The notes under the pieces were generated by a model. It saw nothing but the letters and a program-made list of their open reading frames with translations. It made no database searches and had not been told where the DNA came from. A stretch of 64,000 bases of DNA from Rubrivivax sp. (GTDB taxonomy: Bacteria; Pseudomonadota; Gammaproteobacteria; Burkholderiales; Burkholderiaceae_C), in contig JALHPF010000005.1 in assembly GCA_022842595.1 (NCBI GenBank), positions 95,281 through 159,280 on the forward strand, given 5' to 3'. This document shows, in pieces, positions 1,433 to 21,469 of the stretch (position 1 is the stretch's first letter; each line of letters begins with the position of its first letter). Position numbers and translations under genes: made by a program.

Positions 1433-3593
1433 CAGAAGCAGTGCCGCGGCCGACCTGCTGAAGACTTACCGCGTAGATGGAACGCCTCTCTACGTCATCG
1501 GCACGTTCGATACTGGCGTGACGGTCTTCAGCCAGCAGATTCGTGCCTTGAATCTGGCTTGGGCCGCAGTCGAGGCCGAGCTTGTGCCGGCCTCCGCTGA
1601 ATCCCCTGCGGTCGGGCGTTGCCGATGCAAGGTGGCGGTGATCGGCGCGGGCTTTGCCGGGCTTTCCGTTACTGCAGGCCTTCTCTCCAAAGGTGCGGAC
1701 GCGGAAATCACAGTCTTCGAGCAGCGCGACGCACTCCTTCCCCTCCAACAGGGCAGCGACTCCAGATGGCTGCACCCTCGAATTTACGACTGGCCCAGGA
1801 AGGGTAGCCAGGCAAGCGTCGCCATGCTCCCCGTGCTCAATTGGACCGCAGCGCGTGCCTCCGACGTCGTCGTACAGGTGCTGGCGGAGTGGAAAAAGGT
1901 CCTGACCGCGTCCGACCGGATCCGTCCGACCCTCTATTGCAATGCACGGCACTTGCAGATTCACGAGACGAGCGGGATCAGCCAACTGATGATCGAGTGG
2001 GTCGGTGAACGGCGTAGCGTTGTCGACGGTACAGCGCTGAATGAGCCCGAGATCTCAGCGATCGGCAGGTCCGACACGTTTGATCTGGTGATCTTGGCTG
2101 TCGGCTTCGGGCTTGAGCGCGATGGTGCTCTCTCCTACTGGCGGAACGAGACCATTGGCCAGCCCAGCTTGGATCAGCCTCGTCGGGCTTTCCTGGTCTC
2201 GGGCCAAGGCGATGGCGCCATGATCGACCTCTTGCGGCTACGCATATCGCAATACCGACAGGATCGCATCCTGGACGAGTTGTTCTACGGCAGGTCGGCG
2301 CTGCTGCAATCCATCCAGGCCTTGCATCAGATATACGGGGACGATCAGCACAAGAGCGGACTATTCGCGGAGCTTGAGTCATTGGAGCGCGACACCGCAA
2401 CAAGCGCCGATTTCAGGGAAGTCCGTGAGGACCTGTTCCGCCGACTCCGCAGGGACACCGATGTGATCCTGCGACTGCAAGTGAAGAAGCTGTCTCAGCT
2501 CTTCGATCCTGCTACTGCAAGGATTTCGTTCCAGAACAAGCTTCTCGTCTTTTTTCTATACAAGTGCGGCGGTTTTGTACCCTCGGCGCTCAATGAGGAC
2601 AAGTTGCTCCGTCAGCATGGCATCGCTCCGGAGCGCGTTGTCCGTCGACACGGAACCCTTCGCGACGATCAGCTGAAGGAGCTTCTTTCCGAGAAGCTCT
2701 ACCAAGCGATCGAGACGCGCAGGGGCAAGGCAAAGCCTGACCCGTTTTCGCAGTCGGACCAGGTGCGTTGGCCGGGTGGCTACTTCGATGTCCTCGGCAA
2801 GAGCAAGGACAGCGGCAAGGTTGGTGAACAGCAGCGTGCCCACTGGCGCAAGGAATACCTTCCTGGGCCTACCCAGCTGCTGGCGAGTGCATTCTGCAGT
2901 GCCTTGGCTGGCTTCTTGCGCTCACGCCATCCGAAGCCGGGTCGCCTGCGAGTCGCCCTTCACCGTGCGGTTGCCTTCGGAAACGAGGAGCTTCTTCAGC
3001 AGGCCTGCGACTACCAGGGAACAGCGGACGCCAGAGGCGATAGGTCGGCTGCCGCTCGGACCTTTCCTGCAGAGAATGGAACGATCGGACTTGCATACCA
3101 ATGCCGCCGCATCGTGCGGTCCGCCCGTGCCGTCAAGCCATTGAGGTTGAACGAGGCGATGAAGCCACTCAAGCTGCATGCCGCGTCAAGGCTGATGTCG
3201 AAGGAGGTCGGATTTGTCCTGGCCATTCCGCTTCTTGAGCCCGAACACGCTACTGGCTTTACGGCACCTTCCCCGGTGGCAGGTGTCATCTATGTCGACA
3301 GTCAAGCTCCTGGCTTCTTCATCGAAGACAAGGAACTCCGAGAACTGGTCGCGATGGCTGCTGAGTTCGTCGAGGTACTTACTCGTACCGACAAGAGCCC
3401 CGTCGACCGCATTCGAAATATCAGGCTGTCAGACCTTGGTGTTGCCGCGCGGCCGCCGGGGCGACTTCCGAAGAGCCTGGCGGGTATCCTGGATCTAGTC
3501 ATGGATGTGGAGCCACCCCGTTCATCAGCGCCACTGCAGATCAACTACGACTACTCGGACTTCTATCCCGTCCAGACGGCGAGCGCAAAGTGA
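1425..3593 (+). CDS. FAD/NAD(P)-binding protein with C-terminal GAF-like domain
   Basis: The protein has 722 residues. The ATG at 1425 is preceded by AAGGAGG at 1408-1414 and overlaps the upstream stop. Residues 15-55 form a short module with a QQIRALNLAWA motif that I do not recognise. A Rossmann dinucleotide-binding motif follows (GAGFAG, residues 74-79), with an acidic residue about 25 positions later (TVFEQRD). The central 350 residues carry no motif I can name. Residues 590-655 (PVAGVIYVDS, then a DKELRELVAMAA helix) match the pattern of a GAF domain core. Flavin or nicotinamide nucleotide binding is well supported; catalysis is not. It is the middle gene of three coupled genes (kinase-like, this one, DUF3850). 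It may be a sensor or redox enzyme of an uncharacterised conflict system, but that is inference. Confidence 0.6.
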   Translation: MADRSSAAADLLKTYRVDGTPLYVIGTFDTGVTVFSQQIRALNLAWAAVEAELVPASAESPAVGRCRCKVAVIGAGFAGLSVTAGLLSKGADAEITVFEQRDALLPLQQGSDSRWLHPRIYDWPRKGSQASVAMLPVLNWTAARASDVVVQVLAEWKKVLTASDRIRPTLYCNARHLQIHETSGISQLMIEWVGERRSVVDGTALNEPEISAIGRSDTFDLVILAVGFGLERDGALSYWRNETIGQPSLDQPRRAFLVSGQGDGAMIDLLRLRISQYRQDRILDELFYGRSALLQSIQALHQIYGDDQHKSGLFAELESLERDTATSADFREVREDLFRRLRRDTDVILRLQVKKLSQLFDPATARISFQNKLLVFFLYKCGGFVPSALNEDKLLRQHGIAPERVVRRHGTLRDDQLKELLSEKLYQAIETRRGKAKPDPFSQSDQVRWPGGYFDVLGKSKDSGKVGEQQRAHWRKEYLPGPTQLLASAFCSALAGFLRSRHPKPGRLRVALHRAVAFGNEELLQQACDYQGTADARGDRSAAARTFPAENGTIGLAYQCRRIVRSARAVKPLRLNEAMKPLKLHAASRLMSKEVGFVLAIPLLEPEHATGFTAPSPVAGVIYVDSQAPGFFIEDKELRELVAMAAEFVEVLTRTDKSPVDRIRNIRLSDLGVAARPPGRLPKSLAGILDLVMDVEPPRSSAPLQINYDYSDFYPVQTASAK

Positions 3594-3856
3594 AGACCCA
3601 TACCCTCAGAAGCTGGCCTCAGTTCTTCGAACCGATCGTCACCGGCAATCGCACTCATGAACTTCGACGGAATGATCGCGACTTCAAGGTCGGAGACACG
3701 CTGGAGTTGCATGAGTTCGAGCCAAGTACTGCCACTTACACAGGGCGGACATGCCGTGTGTCAATCACGTCCATGACGTCTGCGGAGGAGCCGTGTGCCG
3801 TCTCTGCCGAGGCGCTCAATCCGGCGTTCTGCATTTTGAGCGTGCGGCTTGCCTGA
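3590..3856 (+). CDS. DUF3850 (ASCH/PUA-like) domain protein
   Basis: This 88-residue protein fits the DUF3850 pattern along its whole length: a LRSWPQFFEPI start, then THELRRNDRDFKVGD, an acidic LELHEFEP strand and a YTGRTC turn. DUF3850 belongs to the ASCH/PUA-like fold, which binds RNA or modified nucleotides. It starts with GTG at 3590 inside the stop of the flavoprotein gene (GTGA overlap), so translation is almost certainly coupled. The partners are a nucleoside-kinase-like protein and a dinucleotide-binding protein. A nucleic-acid- or nucleotide-sensing role is plausible but not shown. Confidence 0.7.
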   Translation: MKTHTLRSWPQFFEPIVTGNRTHELRRNDRDFKVGDTLELHEFEPSTATYTGRTCRVSITSMTSAEEPCAVSAEALNPAFCILSVRLA

Positions 3857-3982
3857 ATGCTGAACGGGAAAGGATGTCGTGACGAACGGCGGCGCTCCAC
3901 CCGAGCGCTCGACCCCTTGGTTTTGCAAGCAAGGAAGCTAAACCGATTGAGGGGCGCTACCTGACGAGTGACGGGGACAAGA

Positions 3983-6900
3983 ATGGCGTCTGATCTACCC
4001 GCAGCGCTCAAGGCTTACGTCGAGCTCCACAACCAGGGGCTGCTGAATGCCTACGCGGCGCACAAGTCCCTGATCCGCGAGCATCACGGGATCGAGCAGA
4101 CGGTGATGGCCGGCGGCTACGGCTACCGCCAGATCCTCGAGCTGGTCCAGAACGGAGCCGATGCGATCCTGGAGGCGCACGAGTCCGGCCTTGCCGCACG
4201 GTCCCGCAGCCGCGTCCAGGTGCTGCTCAGAGGCAGTCGCCTCTACGTTGCCAACACCGGAGCCCCGCTGAGCCATGACGGTGTCGGCGCGCTGCTGAGC
4301 TCGCATTCCTCGCCGAAGCGCGGCAACCAGATCGGCCGATTCGGGCTCGGCTTCAAGTCGCTGCTGGCGCTCGGCGGCACGATCGACCTGTTCACCCGGA
4401 ACTCAGGCGCAATCCGCCTTGATCCGCCTCGCTGCCGACGGATGCTCAGCGAGAGGTTCGAGGTGGCGAACGCACCTGGCCTCAGGCTGGCCTGGCCGCT
4501 GGAGGACAGCGAGCGCCTCGACGACCGTGAACTGATGGGCCTCGGGTGGGCGGAGACGGTAGTGCGCGTCGGCGTCGGATCCGAGGAGACCCTGGAGCAC
4601 CTGAAGCAGGAGATCCGATCGTTTCCTGCAGAGTTCCTGCTTTTCTTCCCCGTGCCCGTCGAACTGGTGCTGGACGAGGGCGACCAGCCTGCACGCGAAC
4701 TCGGTGTCCAGGTAGACGGGGAGAGGCTGGTTCTGCAGGACGGCAAGGAGACCTCGCGCTGGCTCGTGGCGCGACGCGAGGTCCGGGTCGCCGACCCCAA
4801 GGCATTGGCGGATGCGACTCACATCCACGCGCGGGATTCGGTCCCCGTGACGTGGGCCGTGCCGGTCGAAGGGCGACGCGAGGAGGCAGGCCGGTTCTGG
4901 GCCTTCTTCCCGACGCATACGCCGACGTTCATGCGCGGCATCCTCAATGCGCCCTGGAAGCTGAACAGCGACCGCAACGCCATCATCGGCGGCGAATGGA
5001 ACCGCGCGCTCATGTCCGAGGTTGCAGCGCTCGTGGCCGAGACGATGCCGTCGCTTCGCACGGACGACGATCCCGCACTGCCGCTGGACGCGTTTCCGCG
5101 ACAGCTCGATCGCCGCGACGACGATGCAGCCCCTCTGGTGGAGGCGCTCTGGAAGGCGATCGAGACGGCACCTGTCATCCCTGATGCCACGGGAACACTC
5201 CGTGAAGCCGCCATGCTATTGAGGCATCCACGCGAGAGTGAGGAATTGGCGAGGCAGTGGCAGGCACTGGCAGCCTCAAGTACCGCGGCCGGTCTCGTGC
5301 ACCCAAAGTGTCACGATCGTCTGCGTTCCGCGAGGCTCGATGCCCTTGCGCGCCGGCTTGCCGAGCGAGTCGAGGAGCAGGGTACGAAGAACCTCAGGCG
5401 ATGCAGCGTCGAGTCGTGGTTTGCCGTCGTTGCCTCTTCCGATGCAGCACGCGCCATCGAAGTCCTCGGACTGGCGAAGGCATTCGCCGAGGATTGCAAG
5501 CCCGTCGAGTGGGCGGGCGTACGGGACGGCCTGCAGATCATTCCTGACACCGGCGGGGCCTTGAAGTCGCCGCCGCAGGTCATGCTGGCCCCGGAGGGCA
5601 CCCGGGTGGCGGGCCTGTCTGTGGTCGACGCCAGGCTTCAGGCCGATGACACGGCCCGTTCGATCTTGACCGCGGTGCTCGGGGTGCGACCGCTTGGCGA
5701 TCAGATCTGGGATGAGCTTCTCGGAGAACGGCTGTACGCGGTTCCGCCCCAGCCGCCAGCGGCGGCGGACAACGGCTGGCGGAGGTTCTGGGAGACTTTG
5801 AGGGAGGCACCGGCTGGAGTCCGCGCCGGCTTCATCCTGGCGCACAGGGTTCACATCCACGTAAGGCGTGCAGACGGGTCATGGACAAGGCCGGCGGACG
5901 TGTTGCTGCCCGGCGGGATCGTTGCGCCTGACGATCAGTCGGCCAGCAGGCTGATGCTCGCGGACCTGGGTACGCATGCCCTGGACTTGGACGCGCTTGC
6001 AAGATTGGGGGTGAGACCGGTGCCGGAGGGCAGCATTGGCCCCGGGAGCTACGAGACCGTGCGATCTGTGGTCCTTGATGACTGGCTGGAACACTGCCGA
6101 GGCCTGTACAAGAGCACGCACTCGAACTCCGCGTCATGGAACTATCTCGAGCCACGCTTCATGGCCATGCCGGCCGGTTTCCCACTGCTTCCGAAACTGG
6201 ATGGCGTCGCGAACGCGAGGCTGAGCAGGCACTACCTCGAACGTCTGGCGAAGGGCGAGTTCCGGGCGCGTATCAAGGTCGGGCACTGCACGATGAGCGT
6301 CTACCCGGAGATCGAGGTAGCACATCCGCTCGAGTGGCTCCTGCTGCGCCATGGCTGTTTCGAAATTGGCGGGCACGTGGTGCGCCTCTCCGCGATTGCC
6401 GACCGCCGCAACAGTTCAGTCTGGCTCGAGTTGCCTGGGTGGAGCGACGCCATGCAGCCAGTCATCGAGACGCTGGGAGCCGCACTTCCGGCAGTGCCCT
6501 CCACAGCGGCGGAGCGCCGGACGCTGTGGCTCGCGCTGATCGACACGCTTGCAAGTCCTGAGTCGATTGCCGATCCATCCCTTTCGCGGATATGGAGCGA
6601 CGCGGCAGCCGACGCTGTCGTGCCCTCGGCCCTGCCCGGCAGCAGCGGCCGAGTGCGTCTAGCTGAGGTCTTCGTGACGACTTCCGTCGACCTTGCACGG
6701 CGTATGCGGCTGACGGGCCAGACCGTGGTGACGCTGGAAGAGAACACGCTGGAGATCTGGCTGAAACAAGGTGCCCGGAATCTTGCCGAGTTCGTAAGGC
6801 CGGAGTGGACTGAGGCAACTGGACCAGTTTCCCCGCTCTCTTCCCTTTTGCCTGAACTCGCAGAGGCGTTCGACCCGGCTCAGGCCAGCGCAGCGCGCGG

Positions 6901-8728
6901 TCTGGCGGTTTCGGGACTTCGTTTGAGGCTGGCGGATGACGCGGAGCTGATTCCCTGCCTCATATGGAACGAGACCCTGCTTCTCGATCTGGAGCAGCTG
7001 AGTGCAATGTCCCGCTCCGACCGGCTGCGGGTGATGCTGGACGAAGCGTCTGCTGCGGGACTGCTGCGCATGTCCACGTTGGAGGCAATGGACCTGCTCG
7101 CCAATCGGCGGGTGGACGAGCTCAGGGGCGCGGTGCGAAGTGCGGCCACGCTCCCTGAGCGGCTTCTGCTGGCCTTGGGAGGTCGGCGCGAGCCGCTAAT
7201 CGCCGCGCTGGGCGCCGCAGGGCAGCTCGAAGTCGTCCAGGCCTGTGGTGAGAGGCAGCTTGCCGAGCTCGTGCTTGCACACCTTGGGCCGGCGGTCCTC
7301 GTCTCGCTGCGGGACGATCTCGACTCCGAGGGGCTGCGCCCGCCCTCGCGGTGGAGCGGTCAGGAAGCAAGGGCCTTCGTGGCAGCGATTGGCTTCCCTG
7401 ACAGCTTCGCAAGTTCGCCTGAGGCGAGGCGGGACGCGGAAGAGATGATCGCGGGACCCATCGAACTGCCTCCGCTGCATGACTTCCAGTGCGAGGTGCT
7501 CGAGGGAGTGAAGTCGCTTCTCGAATCGGGAAACGGGCGAAGACGTGCGGTCGTGAGCCTTCCGACCGGGGGCGGCAAGACCCGCGTGACCGTGGAAGCC
7601 GCGGTGCACCTGGTGCTCGCGCCAGAGGGGAGCCGGCGAAGCGTGATCTGGGTGGCGCAGACGGACGAACTTTGCGAGCAGGCCGTACAGGCCTTTCGCC
7701 AAGTCTGGCTCAACGTCGGCGCGGCGAGGACCGGGCTGCGCATCGTTCGGCTCTGGGGCGGCAATCCGACCCCTGCGCCTCAGGATCCGGCCAAGCCTGT
7801 CGCGATCGTCGCCTCGATCCAGACGCTCAACGCGCGGTTCTCCGCCCAGGAGCTGGCATGGCTGAGAAGACCCGGCTTGGTCGTCGTCGACGAGTGCCAT
7901 CACGCAATCACGCCAAGCTACACGAACCTGCTCCGCTGGCTAGACGCAGAGGCGCCCCGGCCAGGAGCTCCGGCAAGGGAAGAGCCGCTGATCATCGGCC
8001 TGAGCGCCACGCCGTTCCGGACCGACGACGACGAGTCGAGCCGGCTCGCCCGGCGATTCGACGGTCGATGGCTTCCGCATGATCAGGAGGCGCTCTATCA
8101 GCGGCTTCGCGCGCAGGGGGTCCTTGCAGAACCCGTCTACGAAGGACTGCAATCGGGCACCGCGCTTTTGCCGGACGAGGCAGACCGCCTCGCGCGCCTG
8201 CCGGTCCCGTGGGAGGGTCTCGACTTCGAGAACCTGCTCGAGGCCATCAACCAGCGCCTTGCAGGTGACGCGAAGCGCAACGAAAGGCTTGTGCAGTACC
8301 TGCAGGGTTGCGACGAGCGGTCTATCCTCTTCTTCGCCAACTCGGTGTCGCATGCGCACGAGATGGCGGTCCGGCTCAACTTGGCGGGAGTGCCCGCGGC
8401 GGCTGTCAGCGGTGCAAGTCCGAGTGCCGCGAGGCGGGACTTCCTGGGCCGGTTCCAGCAAGGCGCCGTGCGCGTGTTGTGCAACCATAGCGTCCTGACG
8501 ACCGGCTTCGACGCACCCAGGACGGACATGGTGCTCATCGCGCGGCAGGTCTTCAGTCCCGTGCACTACATGCAGATGGTCGGCCGCGGCCTGCGCGGCG
8601 AAGCGAACGGCGGCACCGCACGGTGTCGCGTGGTCACCGTACTGGACAACCTGGGGCGATTCCAGGACCGACACCCGTACCATTACTGCAGGCGGTACTT
8701 CGAGGCGCAGTTGTCCGAGACGGGCTGA
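3983..8728 (+). CDS. HSP90/sacsin-type ATPase fused to SF2 helicase (restriction-associated)
   Basis: The protein has 1,581 residues. The N-terminal 300 residues form a GHKL ATPase of the sacsin/HSP90 type. The N-box is ELVQNGADA (residues 53-61), a degenerate G1 box reads NTGAPL, and the glycine lid is IGRFGLGFKS (117-126). A long middle region has no motif I recognise. The C-terminal 400 residues are an SF2 helicase: PTGGGKT (1194-1200), DECH (1303-1306), a SATPF motif III and a QMVGRGLRG motif VI. ATG at 3983 is chosen because GGGGAC precedes it; GTG at 3968 is possible. A Vsr-type nuclease gene starts nine bases downstream. GHKL ATPases combined with SF2 helicases and Vsr-like nucleases are known from comparative genomics of restriction systems. 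A DNA translocase working with the Vsr protein and the methyltransferase at 1-705 is the likely role. Confidence 0.8.
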   Translation: MASDLPAALKAYVELHNQGLLNAYAAHKSLIREHHGIEQTVMAGGYGYRQILELVQNGADAILEAHESGLAARSRSRVQVLLRGSRLYVANTGAPLSHDGVGALLSSHSSPKRGNQIGRFGLGFKSLLALGGTIDLFTRNSGAIRLDPPRCRRMLSERFEVANAPGLRLAWPLEDSERLDDRELMGLGWAETVVRVGVGSEETLEHLKQEIRSFPAEFLLFFPVPVELVLDEGDQPARELGVQVDGERLVLQDGKETSRWLVARREVRVADPKALADATHIHARDSVPVTWAVPVEGRREEAGRFWAFFPTHTPTFMRGILNAPWKLNSDRNAIIGGEWNRALMSEVAALVAETMPSLRTDDDPALPLDAFPRQLDRRDDDAAPLVEALWKAIETAPVIPDATGTLREAAMLLRHPRESEELARQWQALAASSTAAGLVHPKCHDRLRSARLDALARRLAERVEEQGTKNLRRCSVESWFAVVASSDAARAIEVLGLAKAFAEDCKPVEWAGVRDGLQIIPDTGGALKSPPQVMLAPEGTRVAGLSVVDARLQADDTARSILTAVLGVRPLGDQIWDELLGERLYAVPPQPPAAADNGWRRFWETLREAPAGVRAGFILAHRVHIHVRRADGSWTRPADVLLPGGIVAPDDQSASRLMLADLGTHALDLDALARLGVRPVPEGSIGPGSYETVRSVVLDDWLEHCRGLYKSTHSNSASWNYLEPRFMAMPAGFPLLPKLDGVANARLSRHYLERLAKGEFRARIKVGHCTMSVYPEIEVAHPLEWLLLRHGCFEIGGHVVRLSAIADRRNSSVWLELPGWSDAMQPVIETLGAALPAVPSTAAERRTLWLALIDTLASPESIADPSLSRIWSDAAADAVVPSALPGSSGRVRLAEVFVTTSVDLARRMRLTGQTVVTLEENTLEIWLKQGARNLAEFVRPEWTEATGPVSPLSSLLPELAEAFDPAQASAARGLAVSGLRLRLADDAELIPCLIWNETLLLDLEQLSAMSRSDRLRVMLDEASAAGLLRMSTLEAMDLLANRRVDELRGAVRSAATLPERLLLALGGRREPLIAALGAAGQLEVVQACGERQLAELVLAHLGPAVLVSLRDDLDSEGLRPPSRWSGQEARAFVAAIGFPDSFASSPEARRDAEEMIAGPIELPPLHDFQCEVLEGVKSLLESGNGRRRAVVSLPTGGGKTRVTVEAAVHLVLAPEGSRRSVIWVAQTDELCEQAVQAFRQVWLNVGAARTGLRIVRLWGGNPTPAPQDPAKPVAIVASIQTLNARFSAQELAWLRRPGLVVVDECHHAITPSYTNLLRWLDAEAPRPGAPAREEPLIIGLSATPFRTDDDESSRLARRFDGRWLPHDQEALYQRLRAQGVLAEPVYEGLQSGTALLPDEADRLARLPVPWEGLDFENLLEAINQRLAGDAKRNERLVQYLQGCDERSILFFANSVSHAHEMAVRLNLAGVPAAAVSGASPSAARRDFLGRFQQGAVRVLCNHSVLTTGFDAPRTDMVLIARQVFSPVHYMQMVGRGLRGEANGGTARCRVVTVLDNLGRFQDRHPYHYCRRYFEAQLSETG

Positions 8729-10052: not shown

Positions 10053-10199
10053 GAACTGCCACCGATACCGAGGACGCCTCAATGCAGCAGAACCTCAGCA
10101 GACGGCGCGTTGGCAGAGCGCTGGTCGAACTGGCCTGTCAGCGCTCTGACGGCGAGCGTTCGCCGAAGAATTGTTGTTCCTCGACCACGGGAAGACGCG

Positions 10200-11717
10200 G
10201 TGAGCGCAGGGGCTGATGCGCAGGCAGGCGGCATGGCGCAGGCCGGCAGCCCGCCTGTGTACGACGCCTTCATCTCCTACCGCCGCAGCGACGGCGCCCG
10301 CGTTGCGCGCTGGCTGCGCCGTGCACTGCAGACCCACCGCGTGCCCAAGGGCTTTGCCGAGCTGCGCCAGCGCCGCCTGGTCGTCTACATGGACACGGCT
10401 TATGAACGCAGCACGCAGGACTTCTACGAACAAAGCATCCGCCCGGCCTTGCAGGCCTCGCGCCACCTGATCGTCCTGGCCACACCCGATGCGGCACAGC
10501 GGCGCCCCGACGCCACCACGGACTGGATGTGGCGCGAACTGCAGGACTTCTCAGCCCTGCCGCAGCGCGACCGCGTGATCGTCGTGCGTGCAGCCGGCGA
10601 CTTTGGCGGCGATCTGCCAGCCGGCCTGCTGCAGCGATTCCCGAACATCGAGGTGGTGGACCTGCGCGACGCCGGGCGCTTTGCCGCGCTTGCACCGTGG
10701 CGGGAAGCGAGGCTGAACCATGAGTTGGTGAAGATCGTCGGCCCGCTGCTCGACATTCCCGCACAGCGCATGCCCGACCTGCGCCAGGAACAGGAGCGCC
10801 GGCAGCAGGCCCGTCTAGGCGCCTTGGCCGGTGCTGCAACTGCGCTGTCCTTGGCAGCAGTGGCCGCGGCGGTGCTGGCCTTGCGCGGCGAGCAGCGTGC
10901 CGTGCAGGCCCTGCAGGACGCGGTGTTCGCCACCGAACGCGTGATCCTGGCCGCCGATCGCGCATTGGAACCCAGCGACGACGTGACCGATGCTCGCGGT
11001 CGGGTGCTCGACGAGGTCTGCGACCTGCGGTCGCGCATGTTGGCCGAGGGCCAGGGTCCGGGCGGCCTGCGCGAGCTGCGCATCTGCGAAGCCGAGCGTG
11101 CGCGCGGCCTGCTGGCGCAGGGCGACAACGAGCAGGCGCAGGCCCGGCTGGACCGCCTGGCAGTGACACTGCGAACCGCGATGACCCAGGGCGCCGACAG
11201 CGACGCCACGGTGCAGTGGCTCAGGGCGTGCGATGCCATCGCTGATGCAGCCCCGCAGCGGCTGGACGCAGCGGGCTGCGGCTCTGCGGCGCAAGACCAT
11301 GCCATCCAGCAACACCGGGGCAACGCCGACGCTGCCGACGCGCTGGCAGCCCGCTGGATCAGCCGCGCCGAGGTGCAGCGCCGCAAGGCCTCAGCCGCCG
11401 TCGATCGCAACGATGTGCCTGCAGCGCTGGGCTTTTGGCGCCAGGCAGTGGTGGAGTACGGGCAAGCCCGTGCCATCCAGTCTGACCCCGACAAGCAGCA
11501 GCGCGTGGCGTTGGACGAAGCCGCCACGCTGATTGCCGTCGCAGCGTTTGAAACCTCGTTGCGGCGTGCGCAACCTGCGGCGCAGGCCCGTCGTGCAGCC
11601 AAGCAGTTGCTCGACCAGGTTCAACGTGCGGCACCGCAGGACCGCGAGGTGGCAGGCTATGCCCGCGAACTGGCCCGCAAGTGGGCGGAGTTACCGTCGC
11701 TGGAGCGCAGCCCGTGA
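10200..11717 (+). CDS. TIR-domain protein with transmembrane segment and helical C-terminus
   Basis: The protein has 505 residues. Residues 20-165 form a TIR domain: YDAFISYRRSDG, then VVYMDTAYE, and WMWREL with Glu113 where the NADase glutamate of prokaryotic TIRs lies. A hydrophobic stretch at about 206-226 is a single transmembrane helix. The remaining 280 residues are alanine-rich and helical, with TPR-like spacing but no clear repeats. The GTG at 10200 has GGGAAG upstream; ATG at 10233 is an alternative. The last codons overlap the next gene (GTGA), so the two are coupled. TIR effectors in bacteria typically deplete NAD or make signalling nucleotides. The membrane anchor and exported partner suggest sensing at the envelope, which is inference. 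Confidence 0.75.
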   Translation: MSAGADAQAGGMAQAGSPPVYDAFISYRRSDGARVARWLRRALQTHRVPKGFAELRQRRLVVYMDTAYERSTQDFYEQSIRPALQASRHLIVLATPDAAQRRPDATTDWMWRELQDFSALPQRDRVIVVRAAGDFGGDLPAGLLQRFPNIEVVDLRDAGRFAALAPWREARLNHELVKIVGPLLDIPAQRMPDLRQEQERRQQARLGALAGAATALSLAAVAAAVLALRGEQRAVQALQDAVFATERVILAADRALEPSDDVTDARGRVLDEVCDLRSRMLAEGQGPGGLRELRICEAERARGLLAQGDNEQAQARLDRLAVTLRTAMTQGADSDATVQWLRACDAIADAAPQRLDAAGCGSAAQDHAIQQHRGNADAADALAARWISRAEVQRRKASAAVDRNDVPAALGFWRQAVVEYGQARAIQSDPDKQQRVALDEAATLIAVAAFETSLRRAQPAAQARRAAKQLLDQVQRAAPQDREVAGYARELARKWAELPSLERSP

Positions 11718-12562: not shown

Positions 12563-13069
12563 TCAGTTCGCGGCCAAGCCCGCCCGGGCATCTTCGGCCA
12601 GCGAAGCATAAATGATGTTTGCTTCGTCCCACAGAGCTTCACAGACTTCCTTGAACGCCGTCAGTTGGCGCGAGTAGTCGTAGAGACCCGATAGATACAG
12701 GACGCATGCGTCCTTGTACGTGGGCCAGAAGTAGATCTCCGGGCACAGTCGAAACTGCGTAAGTCGGTCGGTCTCCAGCGTCTGCACGATCTCGGTGGTG
12801 GGGTCGTCGGCTAAGCCCCATCGTGCCCAATCACCTTGCATGCTGAGCTCTGTGCTGCCTTGCAGCCTAGACAGGCATGCCGTGCTTACTAGGAACTGTT
12901 CGAATGCAAGGTATAGCCGCTCTGGCAGCTCGGCTGTAGCCTGTGCAACTGCAAGTGCCATCAACCTCTCTTGCGCGGCGTCGAAAGATTCAGCCTCGAG
13001 AGCCCAGGAAAACGTACCGTGAAATCGGACCCACAGGCGACGGACCGGCCCAGTCAATGCGATCGGCAT
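12563..13069 (-). CDS. Hypothetical protein, soluble, family not recognised
   Basis: The 168-residue protein begins with ATG at 13069. It is rich in aromatic residues (WVRFHGTFSWALEAESF, then LCPEIYFWPTYKDACVLY) and has no signal peptide, membrane segment or enzymatic motif I can identify. Balanced composition over its length supports a real coding region. It stands alone on the minus strand between the TIR module and the nuclease-like gene at 13541. No function is proposed. Confidence 0.5.
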   Translation of the reverse strand: MPIALTGPVRRLWVRFHGTFSWALEAESFDAAQERLMALAVAQATAELPERLYLAFEQFLVSTACLSRLQGSTELSMQGDWARWGLADDPTTEIVQTLETDRLTQFRLCPEIYFWPTYKDACVLYLSGLYDYSRQLTAFKEVCEALWDEANIIYASLAEDARAGLAAN

Positions 13070-13540: not shown

Positions 13541-14476
13541 TTACTCGGGACGGACAATGCACAACTCCAGGGGAATCACCGGATCCTTGAGGTAGTTCAG
13601 CAGACTCGTGGTTTGGCCGTGGGTTAGCTTGTCCCTATTCTTCACCTCTACGAAGCGTAGTTGCTTAGTTGCGGGGTCAAACACCGTCAAGTCGTAGTTG
13701 CTGCCGGGCACTTCGAAAACCTCGAGTTCGTTGTACGCTGCTGAGTAGCCGCCTTGGTCTAGAACAGCACAGGCAAATTCTAGGAAGTAAAGGGAGCTCC
13801 CATACTTATCTAGGCCGGTTGCAACGTAGTCCTGTTGGGCAAGTTTAAGGAATGGGCCCAAAAGAGCACCGGCTTTGTCCTTCAGCGCTGAGATCAGGGC
13901 GCGGTACCGATTGGAGAGCTCTTCTTTTGAAACTGTGAGGTCAAACAGTGGCTGGGGCTCGATGATGGCTACGAAATATGCCTGTCTCGTGGCACGCGCT
14001 GGGGGAAGAGCAGCCCCAGCGAGATCGAAATAGACGTGGCCATGCAGAAAATCTCCGAATTTCACGACGTCCGCGACGTCTAGGCTCAGATCTTCACGCA
14101 AATGCCATGTGTAGTTCTGGGAACTCCTGGGGGTGATTTCGATGTTCCTGTTGTAGCGATAGGAACCCGCGAGGCCCGCACAGATGTAGAGCTTCACCGC
14201 TTTGCGCAGAAACTGAAAGGCGGCGCCTTCACTCCAGGTCGCGATGCACCCCTGGCTCTCGAAGTATTTTTTCGCCACCAGTTCCACTCTGGAGAAAGTT
14301 GCGTCTCCGTACCTGAAAGAGCGATAGGGCTCCGCGCGCACATCAGGAACTACTGTGACAGGCAAACCATACGCAGCAAAAGCCTCCTGTGGGGTCTTGA
14401 ATTGCTTGGTGACTTCTACGGGTCGCGAAGGCAACCCGTCGCGGTCTTCCCCTACTGGCGTGAGTTCAACGGTCAT
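13541..14476 (-). CDS. PD-(D/E)XK-like (DUF3883-type) putative nuclease
   Basis: The protein has 311 residues. Its C-terminal 90 residues show the spacing of a PD-(D/E)XK nuclease core. An acidic strand (YNELEVFEV) is followed by SNYDLTVFD with the active-site aspartate, then RFVEVKNRD with the E-x-K pair, and a HGQTTSLLNYL helix. This arrangement resembles DUF3883 domains found in defence proteins. The first 200 residues contain aromatic strand-rich segments (YRYNRNIEI, GHVYFDLAG) and could be a sensor or DNA-binding part. The start is ATG at 14476. It is divergent from the large STAND gene at 15096 and has no obvious partner on its own strand. Confidence 0.55.
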   Translation of the reverse strand: MTVELTPVGEDRDGLPSRPVEVTKQFKTPQEAFAAYGLPVTVVPDVRAEPYRSFRYGDATFSRVELVAKKYFESQGCIATWSEGAAFQFLRKAVKLYICAGLAGSYRYNRNIEITPRSSQNYTWHLREDLSLDVADVVKFGDFLHGHVYFDLAGAALPPARATRQAYFVAIIEPQPLFDLTVSKEELSNRYRALISALKDKAGALLGPFLKLAQQDYVATGLDKYGSSLYFLEFACAVLDQGGYSAAYNELEVFEVPGSNYDLTVFDPATKQLRFVEVKNRDKLTHGQTTSLLNYLKDPVIPLELCIVRPE

Positions 14477-15095: not shown

Positions 15096-18000
15096 ATGGA
15101 CTCCGACATCACGAGCCTGCTTGCCCAATACGCAAGTGCCGAGCCGCGCCGCGCAGCAGGTGGAATCTATGCGATGGCAGGCTTTGCCTTTCAGGCGCGC
15201 GTCTATGTTGCGGAACTGGCTGAGGCACTCACTCGTTCAGGCGGTGATCTAGGCAGCAAAGGCGATGTCTTCGTAGAGGCCCTATCGGATATCGCAAAGT
15301 ACGAAACCGCCCAGCAATTGGTGCTGCTGCAGGTGAAGCGGACGTTGACTCCAGCCACACTTGATTCCGCAGCTGGCGAGGTTGCTGCGATCGAGGCATT
15401 CGTAGCCAGCGCTAGGCCCGATTTGAAGGGCACATTCAAGTACGGCGTCGTCTCGGCGTTCACTTCGGGAGCAACCCAATGGGCTGATCTGCCGAAGGGC
15501 TCATCGCACAGAGGCTTGATCGAGCAGTTGGAGGCAGAAGGCCGCCTTGTATCGCCAGGCATTGAGAAGGATCCATGGTGGCGCGCCGTTACTGCCCTCT
15601 GGCCTCACGTTGTCGATCCCTTTGGCTTTGCCAGATTTGCATTCGAACGCGTCTTGCTCAGACGCCTCGAGCCGGACGATGCCCGCGCGTGTCGAGATGC
15701 GATTGCTGAGCGCTATGCGACTTCCCGCCATGCGGGACCTCGCCTTGGGCAAATGCTCTCGGCTGCCGATTTCGCGCTTGAAGGTGGGCAACAGCGTTTT
15801 CGTCTAGAGGTAGGTCGGCAAGCGACGCTGGCCCGAGTACGTGCGGGCCAGTACATGCCGCGCGACGGCCGAGTGGCGGCGTTGGCCGAGCGGGCATCCG
15901 CTCTCAACGATCTCGCCGCGCTTTCCCCAGAAGCCGCCGTCCGGGTGTTCTGGCTAAGCGGGCGATCTGGCGCGGGCAAGAGCGTACTTTTGCTCCAATT
16001 GCTTGAGCACTTGGTTGCAATCGGGCGCCGGGTACTTTGGCTCGGTGGTGACGCAGGTTTGCTCGATCGCGCGCTTCGCGACCTGCAGAGTGTGCCGGCA
16101 CACGAAGCTCCCGAGTTCATCGCCATTGACGACCTCTACGATCGGGATGCGCGCGAACAGCTGGAACTGGCCGCACTGGCCGGTTACATCGATGAACAGG
16201 GTCGACGCCCCTGGCCGCTGCTCATCACCTGCGGTCCCACGGAGTTTGCAGACGCATTTGTGGACGCGACCCGGTTCCGCGGCTTCGAGGTCACCGCCGC
16301 CCCGGTCATTCCTCTAGGAGCGGGCGAAGCGGCTGACCTTCTTCGTTGGGTGGGCGCCAAACGCGGAACCCTGGCGAGCGGGGAAGGCGACGCGTTTGCC
16401 CAGGCACAGCACGGGCAAGGTCTCTTCGTGTCCATGGCGTCTGAACTGGAGTTCGGTGACCTTAGGGAGTTTGCAGCCCGATTCTGTGACCGCGTTTCGG
16501 CCATGTCGCTCCGAGAACCGCTGCGCCCCATGCTCGCGCTGAACCGACTCTACCTTCGGGCACCGTACCGATGGCTGAGCGATTCAGACCGCGAAAGACT
16601 GGAGGTATTGAATCGCGATGGCGACTTTTCGCTGTTGGAACTCTTGCCAGGCAATGCGCTGGTGCGCCTCACCCACCCTCACCTGAGCGATGCCATTTAC
16701 CGCGCGCTTGTCAGTCCCGCCACGCCTTTGGCATTCGCCAATGACCTTGCATCCGCATTCGAACGCGCCCTGGACGAAGGGGATGACGCACTTGCCGCCC
16801 GGCTACTACGGACCTTCTCTGCCAGCGATCGAAGCTTGGTAGCCGACCGTCTGGTGGACGTCAACATGCCTGCATTGGCCGAGCGGTGTGTAGCCAAGTG
16901 GCGGACTTTGCCACCGGGAGGTGATCGAAGGATTCAGTCAGACATGGCCATCAGCTGGGCATGTTGGCCCGCCGCGCACGCAAGCCTGGGTAGTAGCGCA
17001 AACGCTTTGGTTCAAGTGGCGCTGGACAGCATGGGGCAGTGGCGCGATTCAGATCCACGCCAGTCCTATTGGCCAGCGTTTTGGTGGCGTCTGTGGCGGT
17101 CCCATCCGAATACCGAAGCGCTGGCGGTTTGGGCAGGGCAGCGCATCGTCTCGGACGAGGGCTTGAAGCTCCCGCAGTGGTCTCGGATATGGGAGACCCT
17201 TGCTGAGCGTGATCCCACCAGTGAGGGCGTCGCGCCAGAAATGGCCAGGGTCGCCGTGCGCTGGCTTGCCTGCAGTCAGGAACGCGCAGACTGGCACTTC
17301 GTGTGGAAGAAGTTGCCGCGACATGAGGCGACCGCTCTGGAGACCTCTCGCCGTCTTGCAATCACCGAACTTGAAATGCCTTCTGCCCCGTGCTGGGCAT
17401 TTGTGTTCCAGGACATGCTCGCTCACGCAGCAGCCTCGGCGAACGAAGCCGAAGCACGTTCCCTGGTCGCGCAGGGCTGCTCGTGGCTGACGGGTCGAGA
17501 GGATCGCGCGGAATGGAACTATGTCTGGCAGGCGCTGCTGGAGCGGACCCAGTTGCTTCCGCCGACCGTCGACGAGCGCGCCCTGGTCGTGCAAGGCTGC
17601 GCTTGGCTGACGGGTCGAGAAGATCGTGCGGAGTGGAGCTATGTCTGGCGGGCGCTGCTGGAGCGGACCCAGCTGCTTCCGCCGACCGTCGACGAGCGCG
17701 CCCTGGTCGAGCAGGGCTGCTCGTGGCTGACGGGTCGAGAAGATCGTGCGGAATGGAACTATGTCTGGCAGGCGCTGCTGGAGCGGAGCCAGCTGCTTCC
17801 GCCGACCGTCGACGAGCGCGCCCTGGTCGTGCAAGGCTGCGCTTGGCTGACGGGTCGAGAAGATCGTGCGGAGTGGAGCTATGTCTGGCAGGCGCTGCTG
17901 GAGCGGACCCAGCTGCTTCCGCCGACCGTCGACGAGCGCGCCCTGGTCGCGCAGGGCTGCTCGTGGCTGACGGGTCGAGAGGATCGCGCGGAGTGGAGCC

Positions 18001-19136
18001 ATGTCTGGGAGGCGCTGCTGGAGCGGAGCCAGCTGCTTCCGCCGACCGTCGACGAGCGCGCCCTGGTCGTGCAAGGCTGCGCTTGGCTGACGGGTCGAGA
18101 AGATCGTGCGGAGTGGAGCCATGTCTGGGAGGCGCTGCTGGAGCGGACCCAGTTGCTTCCGCCGACCGTCGACGAGCGCGCCCTGGTCGCGCAGGGCTGC
18201 TCGTGGCTGACGGGTCGAGAAGATCGCTCGGACTGGCTGCCTGTGTTCAAGGCCCTACTTGAGAGGCGAATGCTCTTGCCTGAGGGGGATGACAGCAGCC
18301 TGCAGGTTCAGGCTCTCAGTCTTTTGGCTGGGCTGAAAGACCTCTCGCACGGCGAGGCAGGACATCTCTTGGAATCGATGATGGACGCCGGCATCGCAGA
18401 CGAGGCCATCGTCCGCGCGACGCTTGAGTGGTTGCATGCGGATCGGTCTCACCCGGCCTGGCCTCTTGTTGCTGGGAAGTGCCTTCAGCGCATGCCTGAG
18501 GGTGAGCAGCGCGGTGCATTAGCGACTGAATTGGTTGACGCCATTCAACGCCACCCGAACGCCGGAGCCTGGCATCGGCTTCAAGGCATTTTTGAAGCGT
18601 ATGGCCCAGCAGGCGAATCCGATGCACGGAAACTTGTGCAGGAAGCACTGGCGCGGCGCAGGTCGTTGCCCGTTTGGAAGACAGTTACACACAAGCTGCA
18701 GTCTGGCGAACCGGTGAAGGCGACAGTGACAAAGCAGATGGGACAGGCTGTGACTGTCGAGCTTGACGGTGGGCTGTTCGCTGTGCTGAGCGTTGCCGAG
18801 GGCTTCCGACATCGGCGCGGGCAGATCATGCAAGTGGTGGTGTCGAAGATCGCCACGCATCTGGATCGAATAATCGTTTCGCCCTATGTGAAGGCAGCAG
18901 GCCCTTTGGTGGCGGCAGACCTTGTGCCGGGCGCAGACTATGAGGGCGTCGTTACCGGACACCAGCCGTATGGTTTGTTTGTGCAAATAAGCGGGCGGAC
19001 AGGTCTTGTGCACGCGAAATACTTGGCTGATGTTCCTTCGTTTTCGGCTCGTTTTCCAAAGGGTTCCAAGGTCCAGGTACGGCTCCTCGAGGTTGGGGCT
19101 AAAGGCCTTGTGCTTGCCTTTCCACCTGCGCCTTGA
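15096..19136 (+). CDS. Cap4-like nuclease / STAND NTPase / tandem-repeat / S1-domain protein
   Basis: The protein has 1,346 residues. Residues 1-210 resemble the Cap4/DUF4297 nuclease: GFAFQ at 29-33, E61 and D65 in VEALSDI, and QVK at 79-81. A P-loop NTPase follows with GRSGAGKS at 289-296 and FIAIDD at 341-346; the layout suits a STAND signal ATPase. Residues 600-1,060 are helical repeats, including six nearly identical 40-residue units and part of a seventh (17460-18239), each reading QGCxWLTGREDRAEW. The C-terminus has a degenerate OB-like domain, then a good S1 domain (GLFVQISGRTGLVHAKYL). ATG at 15096 is chosen by composition, though its ribosome site is weak. STAND proteins with nuclease domains are known antiphage sensors. 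Here the repeats or S1 domains are the likely ligand-binding parts, possibly for RNA. Confidence 0.75.
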   Translation: MDSDITSLLAQYASAEPRRAAGGIYAMAGFAFQARVYVAELAEALTRSGGDLGSKGDVFVEALSDIAKYETAQQLVLLQVKRTLTPATLDSAAGEVAAIEAFVASARPDLKGTFKYGVVSAFTSGATQWADLPKGSSHRGLIEQLEAEGRLVSPGIEKDPWWRAVTALWPHVVDPFGFARFAFERVLLRRLEPDDARACRDAIAERYATSRHAGPRLGQMLSAADFALEGGQQRFRLEVGRQATLARVRAGQYMPRDGRVAALAERASALNDLAALSPEAAVRVFWLSGRSGAGKSVLLLQLLEHLVAIGRRVLWLGGDAGLLDRALRDLQSVPAHEAPEFIAIDDLYDRDAREQLELAALAGYIDEQGRRPWPLLITCGPTEFADAFVDATRFRGFEVTAAPVIPLGAGEAADLLRWVGAKRGTLASGEGDAFAQAQHGQGLFVSMASELEFGDLREFAARFCDRVSAMSLREPLRPMLALNRLYLRAPYRWLSDSDRERLEVLNRDGDFSLLELLPGNALVRLTHPHLSDAIYRALVSPATPLAFANDLASAFERALDEGDDALAARLLRTFSASDRSLVADRLVDVNMPALAERCVAKWRTLPPGGDRRIQSDMAISWACWPAAHASLGSSANALVQVALDSMGQWRDSDPRQSYWPAFWWRLWRSHPNTEALAVWAGQRIVSDEGLKLPQWSRIWETLAERDPTSEGVAPEMARVAVRWLACSQERADWHFVWKKLPRHEATALETSRRLAITELEMPSAPCWAFVFQDMLAHAAASANEAEARSLVAQGCSWLTGREDRAEWNYVWQALLERTQLLPPTVDERALVVQGCAWLTGREDRAEWSYVWRALLERTQLLPPTVDERALVEQGCSWLTGREDRAEWNYVWQALLERSQLLPPTVDERALVVQGCAWLTGREDRAEWSYVWQALLERTQLLPPTVDERALVAQGCSWLTGREDRAEWSHVWEALLERSQLLPPTVDERALVVQGCAWLTGREDRAEWSHVWEALLERTQLLPPTVDERALVAQGCSWLTGREDRSDWLPVFKALLERRMLLPEGDDSSLQVQALSLLAGLKDLSHGEAGHLLESMMDAGIADEAIVRATLEWLHADRSHPAWPLVAGKCLQRMPEGEQRGALATELVDAIQRHPNAGAWHRLQGIFEAYGPAGESDARKLVQEALARRRSLPVWKTVTHKLQSGEPVKATVTKQMGQAVTVELDGGLFAVLSVAEGFRHRRGQIMQVVVSKIATHLDRIIVSPYVKAAGPLVAADLVPGADYEGVVTGHQPYGLFVQISGRTGLVHAKYLADVPSFSARFPKGSKVQVRLLEVGAKGLVLAFPPAP
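17460..18239 (+). repeat. 120-bp in-frame tandem repeats (six full units plus half), 240-bp higher-order period
   Basis: Units begin at 17460, 17580, 17700, 17820, 17940, 18060 and 18180, the last diverging halfway. Each encodes 40 residues of the large STAND protein. Odd units carry GCAGGGCTGCTCG (Cys-Ser-Trp) and even units GCAAGGCTGCGCTT (Cys-Ala-Trp), so the array grew by duplicating pairs. Differences cluster at a few codons (NYVWQ, SYVWR, SHVWE). Such near-identity at the DNA level implies recent expansion or gene conversion. Confidence 0.95.
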
Positions 19137-19687: not shown

Positions 19688-21013
19688 CTAGTGAGCAGGC
19701 TTCTCGTCGACCTTGGGCTTGAATTCGATCTCGGCCTGATCCAGCACCCATGCTTCGATGCGCTCATGCCACATCCGCAACAAGTCGAGCGGGCGCACCC
19801 GGTAGTGCTTCTCGGCAATGGCGCTGGGCTTGTGGCCCTGAATCTGCGCCACCACGCCCACGGGCACCTCCACCCACTCCGACAGCGTACCGAAGGACCG
19901 GCGCAAACCGTGCAAGGTGACGTGGGGCAAGCCCGCGACCTTGAGAGCCCGGGTGTGGTTCGCCCGCGCGTCTTGCAGACGTCCACTCGCCGCGCTGGGG
20001 CTGGTAAAGACGTGGGGGTTCTTCGGCCGGCGCGGCAACCACGACAGCAGATGCGCGACGTAGGGTGTGAGCGGAATGGTCCGCTCACCCTCGACTTTGT
20101 CGCGTATGCGCAGCGCCTTCCACTGAAAGTCCACGTGCTCCCAGCGCAGGCCCGCCAGTTCTTCCCGGCGCGCACCGGTCAGGAGTAGGGTCTGCAGGTA
20201 CGCGGCGGCGACCGGGTTGGGGTCAGCACGCACGGCCTTGAACCACACGGCCAGCTGCTCGCGCTGCAGGGAGTCCGTCTTGGCGGTGGGCTTGCCTAGC
20301 TTCTCGCGGGTCTTCTTGCTGCGGCAAGCTTCAGGCTGAGCCATGAGGCGATAGTCATCGCTCTCGGCGCACCAGTTCAGGAAGGCTCGCAGTAGGCGAA
20401 AGCCCAACAGAGCACGCGCCGGCCGGGCCTTCGTCTCCCGCGTCACCCACGACTGCACGGCGGCGGCGTCAATCTCGGCCAGCGGGCGGGCCAGGAGCGG
20501 GCGCAGTGGGCCGACGATGGTCTTGCCCTCGGCGCGCTTGCGCTGCCTGCCGCCCTCGGTGGCGAATGCCAGGTGATCGGCGTGGTTTCGCTCGCTCCAA
20601 TGCGGCTTTCGCTCTGCGCAGTAGACCTCCCACGCCATGAGACCCGTGACTTCGAGCCGCTGGCGGGCTGCCTTGGCGGCATCACGGACGGCGCGGTCGC
20701 TGGCTTCCTGTTCGGAGCGCTCACGGCGTGGGTCCTTGCCCTCGTCGATAAGGCGCTGAAGGCGGCGGGCCTGCTCCTGGGCCTTGGGGATCGTGTACAC
20801 GCCACTGCCGTCCTCACTGATGGGTTCGCCGATGGTCAGGCGGACGGTCTGGCCGTCGCGAAGTCGCGTCTGAAAAATGTAGGCCCGCGCACCCTGGGCC
20901 GTAACCCGTAGCCCCAAGCCCGGTGCCTTCGCGTCCCATAGGAAGGCTTGAGCCTTGCCTTCAGGGCAGGTGAATTCGGCTAGCCGGCCGGCGGTGAAGT
21001 TGACCTTGGCCAT
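19688..21013 (-). CDS. Tyrosine recombinase (integrase) of the tRNA-Phe island
   Basis: The 441-residue protein has an N-terminal DUF4102-type arm-binding part (MAKVNFTAGRLAEFTCPE and GARAYIFQTRLRDG). A core-binding domain and a catalytic domain follow. Catalytic residues are visible: Arg in LTGARREELAGLRW, His-x-x-Arg in LHGLRRSFG, His in IQGHKPS and the nucleophilic Tyr in AEKHYRV. The ATG at 21013 has GGAGGG just upstream; a longer frame running on into the tRNA piece is spurious. It lies 185 bases from the 46-base tRNA-Phe fragment at 21199, the expected place for its attachment site. It probably integrated the island into the anticodon-to-3' part of tRNA-Phe. Confidence 0.9.
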   Translation of the reverse strand: MAKVNFTAGRLAEFTCPEGKAQAFLWDAKAPGLGLRVTAQGARAYIFQTRLRDGQTVRLTIGEPISEDGSGVYTIPKAQEQARRLQRLIDEGKDPRRERSEQEASDRAVRDAAKAARQRLEVTGLMAWEVYCAERKPHWSERNHADHLAFATEGGRQRKRAEGKTIVGPLRPLLARPLAEIDAAAVQSWVTRETKARPARALLGFRLLRAFLNWCAESDDYRLMAQPEACRSKKTREKLGKPTAKTDSLQREQLAVWFKAVRADPNPVAAAYLQTLLLTGARREELAGLRWEHVDFQWKALRIRDKVEGERTIPLTPYVAHLLSWLPRRPKNPHVFTSPSAASGRLQDARANHTRALKVAGLPHVTLHGLRRSFGTLSEWVEVPVGVVAQIQGHKPSAIAEKHYRVRPLDLLRMWHERIEAWVLDQAEIEFKPKVDEKPAH

Positions 21014-21198
21014 CCCGCACCCTCCAATGCGTACACCCGCGAACCCATGTAAGCAGAGATGTAAGCACATTCTAGGCATCCGGATCAACACCGTCCAACA
21101 TAAGGCGCAGACCTGGAACCCGGATGGATGCTTGATTTCATAGGAAACCGCCGGGAATTTCAACACGCCGAAACTGCTGCGAGTTCGGCATCTCGCAT

Positions 21199-21244
21199 AT
21201 TGAAAATCCGCGTGTCGGTGGTTCGATTCCGCCCCAGGCCACCA
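21199..21244 (+). repeat. Attachment site: 3' portion of tRNA-Phe (copy 1)
   Basis: The 46 bases match the anticodon loop (TTGAAAA, anticodon GAA), the variable region, T arm (GGTTCGATTCC), acceptor strand and CCA end of a Burkholderiales-type tRNA-Phe. The sequence to the left does not complete the anticodon stem or the 5' half, so it is not a functional tRNA. The break in the anticodon loop is a typical crossover place for tRNA-targeting tyrosine recombinases. Orientation implies the intact tRNA lies left of the window and this is the distal end of the island. Confidence 0.85.
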
Positions 21245-21469
21245 AGATCGCAAGCCCTTGATTCTTCACAGGATCGAGGGCTTTTTCACATCTTGGGCTG
21301 CGCTTCCCGCTTGGTTTGGTACACCGGGCAGGTACGCCATGAGTCTTTCGCAGCATGCCGGTAGCCGACACCTCTTCTTCAATGAATTGCTTGCTGGCGC
21401 GAACGCCGCGTGCTCGCGCTGCACTGCGCGACCTTGCACCCACCGACTCGCCCAGGTGAACTGCAAGCA
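21245..21469. other. tRNA-Phe downstream flank (copy 1) and junction
   Basis: After the terminator, sequence matching copies 2 and 3 continues to about 21365 (including CGCCATGAGTC). It then diverges into unrelated DNA leading to the hydrolase gene. There is no gene. Confidence 0.6.
21253..21286 (+). terminator. Intrinsic terminator downstream of tRNA-Phe fragment (copy 1)
   Basis: Stem arms AGCCCTTGAT (21253-21262) and ATCGAGGGCT (21273-21282) pair with one G-T wobble and are followed by five T residues. This is the natural tRNA-Phe terminator carried with the att copy. Confidence 0.8.

Follow-up and report, generated by a model that had tools for sequence, protein, structure and literature searches.

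A candidate NLR-like antiphage receptor of Rubrivivax combining a predicted nuclease, a STAND switch, a variable repeat array and an S1-type tail

The protein described here is encoded at 15096-19136 (+) of a 64,000 nucleotide stretch of a Rubrivivax sp. genome (contig JALHPF010000005.1), called the window below, and has the architecture of a STAND immune receptor, with a nuclease effector, a switch and a sensor. Among the closest described systems is Avs3 (AVAST type 3), composed of a Cap4 nuclease, a STAND domain and a C-terminal sensor; in the window protein the C-terminal part is instead an array of 40 amino acid repeats of high identity followed by S1 units. According to the excerpts of PMC11291478, the nuclease domains of Avs3 tetramerise. 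Avs5 shares the order of STAND domain and helical repeats but carries a SIR2 effector, and the partial sources on Avs5 mention no S1 tail. No Avs model of PADLOC, which holds at least one for Avs2, matched the window protein at E values up to 0.1, and the homologue P0025 gave a P-loop match alone (E 0.037). Judged by its sequence, the protein would not be classed as an Avs.

The human antiviral factor SAMD9 and its relative SAMD9L have the layout AlbA, SIR2-like, STAND, TPR and OB-fold, and share with the window protein the order of STAND domain, helical repeats and C-terminal OB-fold. The differences lie at the N-terminus, where SAMD9 has the AlbA and SIR2-like domains (absent from some members of its family, PMC5445408) and the window protein a DUF4297-like nuclease, in the Walker A motif, which reads GGT/S in SAMD9 and GKS in the window protein, and in the OB-fold, cold-shock-like in the former and an S1 of bS1 type in the latter. 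The window protein thus shares the SAMD9 layout but lacks two of the features that define SAMD9. Sequence homology to SAMD9 was considered and rejected, as SAMD9 is absent among the 60 of 71 profile matches listed. Fungal NLRs of the HET-D/E type consist of an effector, an NTPase and repeats that are at least 85% identical internally and polymorphic in length, and high internal conservation together with length polymorphism is typical of many fungal NLR sensors, as stated in the excerpts of PMC4986451. The window array resembles them in its identity of 95% over 100 amino acids and in a repeat number which differs between near-identical alleles, and departs from them in its repeat fold, its effector and its S1 domains.

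DUF4297-HerA and the LmuA protein of Lamassu have the same nuclease fold as the window protein. DUF4297-HerA, for which the excerpts of PMC11291478 report double-stranded DNA cleavage and abortive infection, consists however of two genes and has a HerA motor where the window protein has STAND domain, repeats and S1. Other bacterial conflict systems include S1 domains among their variable components, the predicted conflict proteins of the TERNS3 and MoxR-vWA types having multiple OB-fold S1 or S1-like domains (PMC8195603 and PMC7159879, both in excerpt); these passages place S1 among the effector modules, with OST-HTH or KH, whereas here it is the constant tail of a nuclease-STAND-repeat protein. 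No paper on this receptor family was found in the open PMC literature, a scope which leaves bioRxiv outside, and a survey of S1 proteins (PMC11641769) does not mention STAND proteins or NTPases.

We consider it rather probable that the window protein is an NLR-like antiphage receptor, in which a predicted DNA-cutting domain would be switched on when the array and the bS1-like tail engage a phage-derived ligand, probably one containing or handling RNA. This reading is based on the domain order, the fold matches, the conservation of motifs, the variety of effectors, the whole-unit differences between arrays and the location in a mobile defence island. The antiphage activity itself is presumed by analogy with the relatives described above.

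The gene is a stop-free open reading frame (ORF) of 1346 amino acids. Its start at 15096 fits the N-termini of the closest homologues, the same frame being open from 14907. No promoter was found, and the two terminator-like sites are fewer than the mean of 4.6 in shuffled sequences. The predicted nuclease domain covers residues 1-212 (15096-15731, +), of which residues 24-211 of the predicted model match a nuclease fold, the PD-(D/E)xK fold of the DUF4297 type. Its motif, E61, D65 and Q79-V80-K81 (15276-15338, +), was followed in 88 aligned rows, six truncated proteins out of 94 rows being left out: E61 is found in 88/88 rows, D65 in 87/88, and Q79 and K81 in 87/88, the remaining row having a gap. 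The LmuA/DUF4297 models matched three of six homologues scanned (E 3e-6 to 2e-4) and a fourth at E 0.005, and two gave no match. Because of the structure, the motif conservation and these matches of some homologues, the N-terminal domain is predicted to be a Cap4/DUF4297-like nuclease with conserved acidic residues and a QxK motif; by analogy it likely cuts DNA. An earlier note on this DNA had proposed a nuclease of this type with E61, D65 and QVK 79-81 and a Walker A motif GRSGAGKS at 289-296. All these residues are in place, and the lack of a nuclease fold, set beforehand as an outcome against the proposal, did not occur.

The STAND NTPase and the helical/winged part which follows it occupy residues 213-560 (15732-16775, +). 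Pfam nSTAND_NTPase5 (PF25199) matches at 258-347 (E 1.4e-9, above cut-off), and K295 of the Walker A motif GRSGAGKS (residues 289-296; 15960-15983, +) as well as both residues of the Walker-B-like acidic pair D345-D346 (16128-16133, +) are invariant in the 88 rows. The STAND part of the predicted model has fold matches to SAMD9, NLRs, Apaf-1, Avs5 and Avs3, and the receptor models also gave fold matches to structures of Avs4 and Avs3. With Walker A, acidic Walker B and NLR-like fold, sequence and model place the receptor in the STAND NTPase superfamily, and the P-loop NTPase of STAND type claimed by the earlier note is upheld by the Pfam match, the fold matches and the invariant residues.

The C-terminal tail starts with a linker containing W1194 and a first, degenerate S1 unit (residues 1188-1264; 18657-18887, +), the strands of which are seen in the model at 1207-1263, and ends with a second, canonical unit (residues 1279-1342; 18930-19121, +) in which Pfam S1 is found above cut-off at 1279-1333 (E 2.9e-8), in agreement with the C-terminal S1 domain of the earlier note. 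An S1-type tail is present in 73 of 77 full-length members of the family. In the tail alignment, counted on the 64 of 116 rows with at least 130 residues, W1194 is conserved in 63/64 rows, Y/F1292 in 57/64, F1295 in 46/64 and H1306 in 53/64; Y1292, F1295 and H1306 are the putative RNA-contact positions known from S1 structures. When the family profile was compared with the PDB sequences, bS1 was the first match, over both S1 units and the linker (E about 1e-36, among the 60 of 71 matches listed). Within the S1 proteins of the same genome the best stretch of bS1 scores 74 bits against the tail, followed by L022 (51) and L019 (41). In a profile comparison with 19 bS1 proteins, selected from 30 loci by the alignment of their frame to the host bS1, the tail aligns to bS1 domains D2-D3 with a score of 130 and to D4-D5 with 117, and an assignment to D2-D3 specifically was rejected because D4-D5 follows so closely. 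On its sequence the tail would be a tandem S1 of bS1 type, with the W-containing linker of bS1 and the canonical Y/F-F-H face on the second unit. The canonical second unit and the persistence of the tail lend moderate support to a trigger that contains RNA, as suggested by the earlier note. The earlier note had called an S1 domain at the sensor end unusual. This does not hold for the protein within its family, as the tail is nearly constant there, tandem and bS1-like, and precedents exist, including SAMD9, a STAND-TPR protein ending in an OB-fold with predicted RNA binding (PMC5445408).

The sensor region between switch and tail is made of alpha-alpha hairpins as far as the tail (model of residues 561-1346, mean predicted local distance difference test score 89.6). 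Divergent hairpins at residues 561-788 (16776-17459, +) and 1069-1187 (18300-18656, +), both taken from the predicted model, flank seven repeats of 40 amino acids at residues 789-1068 (17460-18299, +), the first six of which are 91-99% identical in DNA. Tandem Repeats Finder reports a single array at 17461-18226 with a period of 120 bp, 6.4 copies and 92% matches, as expected from the near-identical array described by the earlier note. The 95% identity of the window array is reached at an offset of 80. Identity within the array over 100 amino acids is at least 85% in 24/73 full-length proteins, and at least 70% in 34/73. An initial period scan preferred 80 in many members; a super-period of 80 amino acids, or two units, was rejected for the family, as identity two units apart exceeds that of adjacent units in just 5/16 proteins. 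It holds in the window's own DNA, where units 2, 4 and 6 are 97-99% identical. The helical part also matched AP-2, importin and PUF proteins, as often happens with helical repeats, and these matches were not taken as a relationship.

The array differs in length between close relatives. Eight near-identical pairs were found, and in five of them the two proteins agree in every one of the first 560 and the last 150 residues but differ in length by 160, 320, 40, 80 and 40 amino acids, that is by whole units of 40; a single trio (P0051, P0058 and P0060) accounts for three of these five pairs, and the pairs derive partly from metagenome assemblies, in which repeats may collapse. P0014 and P0059, both named Pectobacterium polaris, are 320 amino acids apart in length. 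Positions 1, 4, 8, 20, 21, 24 and 30 of the unit vary inside the window array, all but 30 lying in the two helices with a helix-like spacing. The same positions are also more variable in the arrays of 10 remote homologues (mean within-array entropy 0.97 vs 0.45, p 0.0002), which is consistent with a single exposed, changing face.

A second protein search, in which 7990 candidates were scored, found other effectors on the same chassis. P0086 starts with a Trypsin/Trypsin_2 protease domain above the Pfam cut-off, followed by STAND_5. P0096 and P0095 are related to it over 97% and 85% of its length, P0095 starting late, and have no Pfam trypsin match of their own at E up to 0.05. P0094 and P0097 carry a DUF4062 front (E about 0.001, below the curated Pfam cut-off). 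STAND_5 is found in all five and S1 in four, the Pfam scan finding none in P0097 (887 amino acids). P0094 has five S1 stretches, near the six S1 units of bS1. The family nuclease profile matches none of the five and matches P0098. In the NTPase tree, in which the truncated rows P0049, P0072 and P0079 are labelled as nuclease although they have no nuclease match, the five form one clade (99/91) with the nuclease-bearing P0098 and P0083 as neighbours; the tree is midpoint-rooted and does not show the direction of the change of effector. Swapping effectors on one switch and sensor is a habit of NLR-type receptors, and because different effectors share one switch and sensor here, the S1 tail is tied to the sensing side.

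At least 93 homologues of the receptor were found by scoring the 7991 candidates which share most words with it out of 5.8 billion proteins. Their hosts include Delftia, Roseateles, Rhizobacter, Achromobacter, Variovorax, Shewanella, Pectobacterium, Pantoea, Enterobacter, Pseudomonas and Photobacterium, and several are named merely "S1 RNA-binding domain-containing protein" or "P-loop NTPase". In genome searches, which consisted of a first look followed by the scoring of a few candidates per genome, a full match was seen in 1/81 genomes of the genus (the window's own, a second match being a P-loop match of 58 residues), in 2/399 of the bacterial family and in 2/369 of the class, own genome included each time and the other at class level being a relative with 30% identity. 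With these counts the gene is accessory, and homologues confined to regions outside mobile or defence DNA and having a housekeeping role, the other outcome that the earlier note had set against itself, were not encountered. None was found in E. coli genomes searched with the N-terminal 1705 bases as DNA only, and none in annotated phages with the window gene as query. The homologue at locus L013, used as query on the same phages, returned three records matching the S1 tail alone, two of them annotated rpsA. The records CAKLQH020000011 and CAKLQF020000009 of "Acinetobacter phage MD-2021a" carry an rpsA-annotated gene, which looks like bacterial sequence.

Downstream of the receptor gene is found a tyrosine integrase with Arm-DNA-bind_3 and Phage_integrase domains by Pfam (19688-21253, -, with the ORF start as listed), in line with the integrase noticed beside it earlier. 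The integrase adjoins an att-like repeat of 46 bp (21199-21244, +), identical to the 3' part of the intact tRNA-Phe of the same genome at C5:74295-74370, 42.2 kb upstream. Window positions 1-21244 together with C5:74371-95280 are thus a 42.2 kb tRNA-Phe island which begins before the window and is bounded by this repeat. It contains genes for DISARM (DrmMII, DrmA and DrmB), a NERD-helicase, a type III methylase, an LmuA-like protein, a TmtA-like sacsin/helicase, Vsr, a TIR protein and a BovA-like fragment. As the DNA up to and including tRNA-Phe matches wholly or partly in 81/81 genomes of the genus, and at least five other genomes (G003, G008, G021, G030 and G055) have a second copy of the 46-base end on the same contig at 7 to 22 kb, the site looks like an integration hotspot of the genus.

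Other members of the family have varied surroundings. On an Enterobacter plasmid the gene is flanked by an AbiEii gene and an integrase, and PD-Lambda-1 is found at a distance of about 13 kb. At L010 a short integrase ORF stands beside it, and at L011 a distant relative is about 5.6 kb from a ThsB-like TIR protein. L013 is a contig of a viral collection with the family gene at 2363-6688 and genes for a DNA methylase, a phage terminase and a metallopeptidase, possibly a case of prophage-carried defence. A partner gene was looked for and rejected, the neighbours differing between the window, L005, L010, L011 and L013; for this reason a one-gene system is assumed.

By comparison with relatives, the receptor would work as follows. 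The resting STAND NTPase would keep the nuclease domains apart until infection delivers a ligand to the repeat superhelix, the S1 units possibly contacting RNA or an RNA-binding or translation factor. Exchange of nucleotide would then allow the STAND domains to oligomerise, by which the Cap4-like domains could be paired, as is reported for Avs3 and DUF4297-HerA, and cut double-stranded DNA. Loss of host and phage DNA would abort the infection.

It is less easy to tell which part of the sensor end recognises the trigger. The array could be the sensor alone, recognising a phage protein by its shape like the Avs sensors, with the S1 tail merely tethering the protein to RNA or ribosomes or stabilising it. 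We regard this as a real, though not the favoured, possibility: it is the array which differs in length by whole units, its variable positions are also the more variable ones in the remote homologues, and Avs4 and Avs3 appear among the structures matched by fold. Most repeat proteins vary at their surface, however, so that this pattern is unspecific, and a tail kept in all but four of the full-length members and in 4/5 of the proteins with other effectors is more than a dispensable tether needs. The tail could also be a bait or docking copy of bS1, the receptor sensing phage factors which bind or damage bS1, or sitting on the ribosome and sensing the shut-off of translation. The rank of bS1 as top PDB match over both units and linker, its lead in bits within the genome and the alignment to D2-D3 and D4-D5 all fit this. 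But bS1 has the most S1 units of all S1 proteins of the genome, so that it may be the best match of any tandem S1, the preference for D2-D3 is modest, and Pfam finds between 1 and 5 S1 stretches in the members scanned; we think the bait unlikely. An ordinary protein of RNA metabolism or repair, located on the island by chance, would account for the S1 domains, but hardly for the rarity of the gene in genus and family, its presence in settings as different as an island, a plasmid and a phage-like contig, or the different effectors on one chassis, and appears very improbable.

A number of observations speak against the reading as an NLR-like antiphage receptor. The protein has no match above cut-off in NCBIfam, its sole PADLOC match is a P-loop match with E 0.08, and no Pfam nuclease model matches it at E up to 1. 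The putative RNA-contact residues of the tail are frequent but not universal, in the proportions given above. The pN/pS ratio (non-synonymous to synonymous differences) among the six units of the window is 0.43 overall, which gives no sign of positive selection over whole units. L002, L003 and L010 had no known defence gene among the ORFs scanned, apart from the short integrase ORF at L010 nothing telling being seen.

If the protein is indeed an NLR-like receptor, it stands for a class of STAND receptors whose sensor end pairs a quickly changing repeat array with a module of RNA-binding type, and it would be by its layout a bacterial counterpart of the effector-STAND-repeat-OB order of SAMD9. 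Two questions could then be tested: whether RNA or the translation machinery is sensed by NLR-like proteins of bacteria, and whether a change of repeat number alone alters the phage recognised, for which the variable repeats of fungal NLRs set an example. A more speculative and improbable form of the proposal is that a captured piece of bS1 serves as an integrated bait, tripped by phage factors or RNAs which seize bS1, that the minisatellite-like array gains and loses units of 40 residues and so retunes what, or how much, is recognised, and that the effector (nuclease, protease or DUF4062) is freely swapped.

Some other genes of the island were observed in the window. At 3968-8728 is encoded a protein of 1586 amino acids with a sacsin-type ATP-binding domain and a RadD-like SF2 helicase, TmtA matching on its N-terminal part, and at 10110-11717 a TIR_2 domain protein which has no PADLOC match at E up to 1e-5. 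The protein of 168 amino acids at 12563-13069 (-) is matched by the BovA model of 711 residues (E 7.8e-26) over the first part of that model alone, and may be a shortened version or a remnant. The ORF at 13541-14476 (-), which runs divergently to the receptor gene, encodes 311 amino acids with a weak match to NOV_C (E 0.014, below cut-off).

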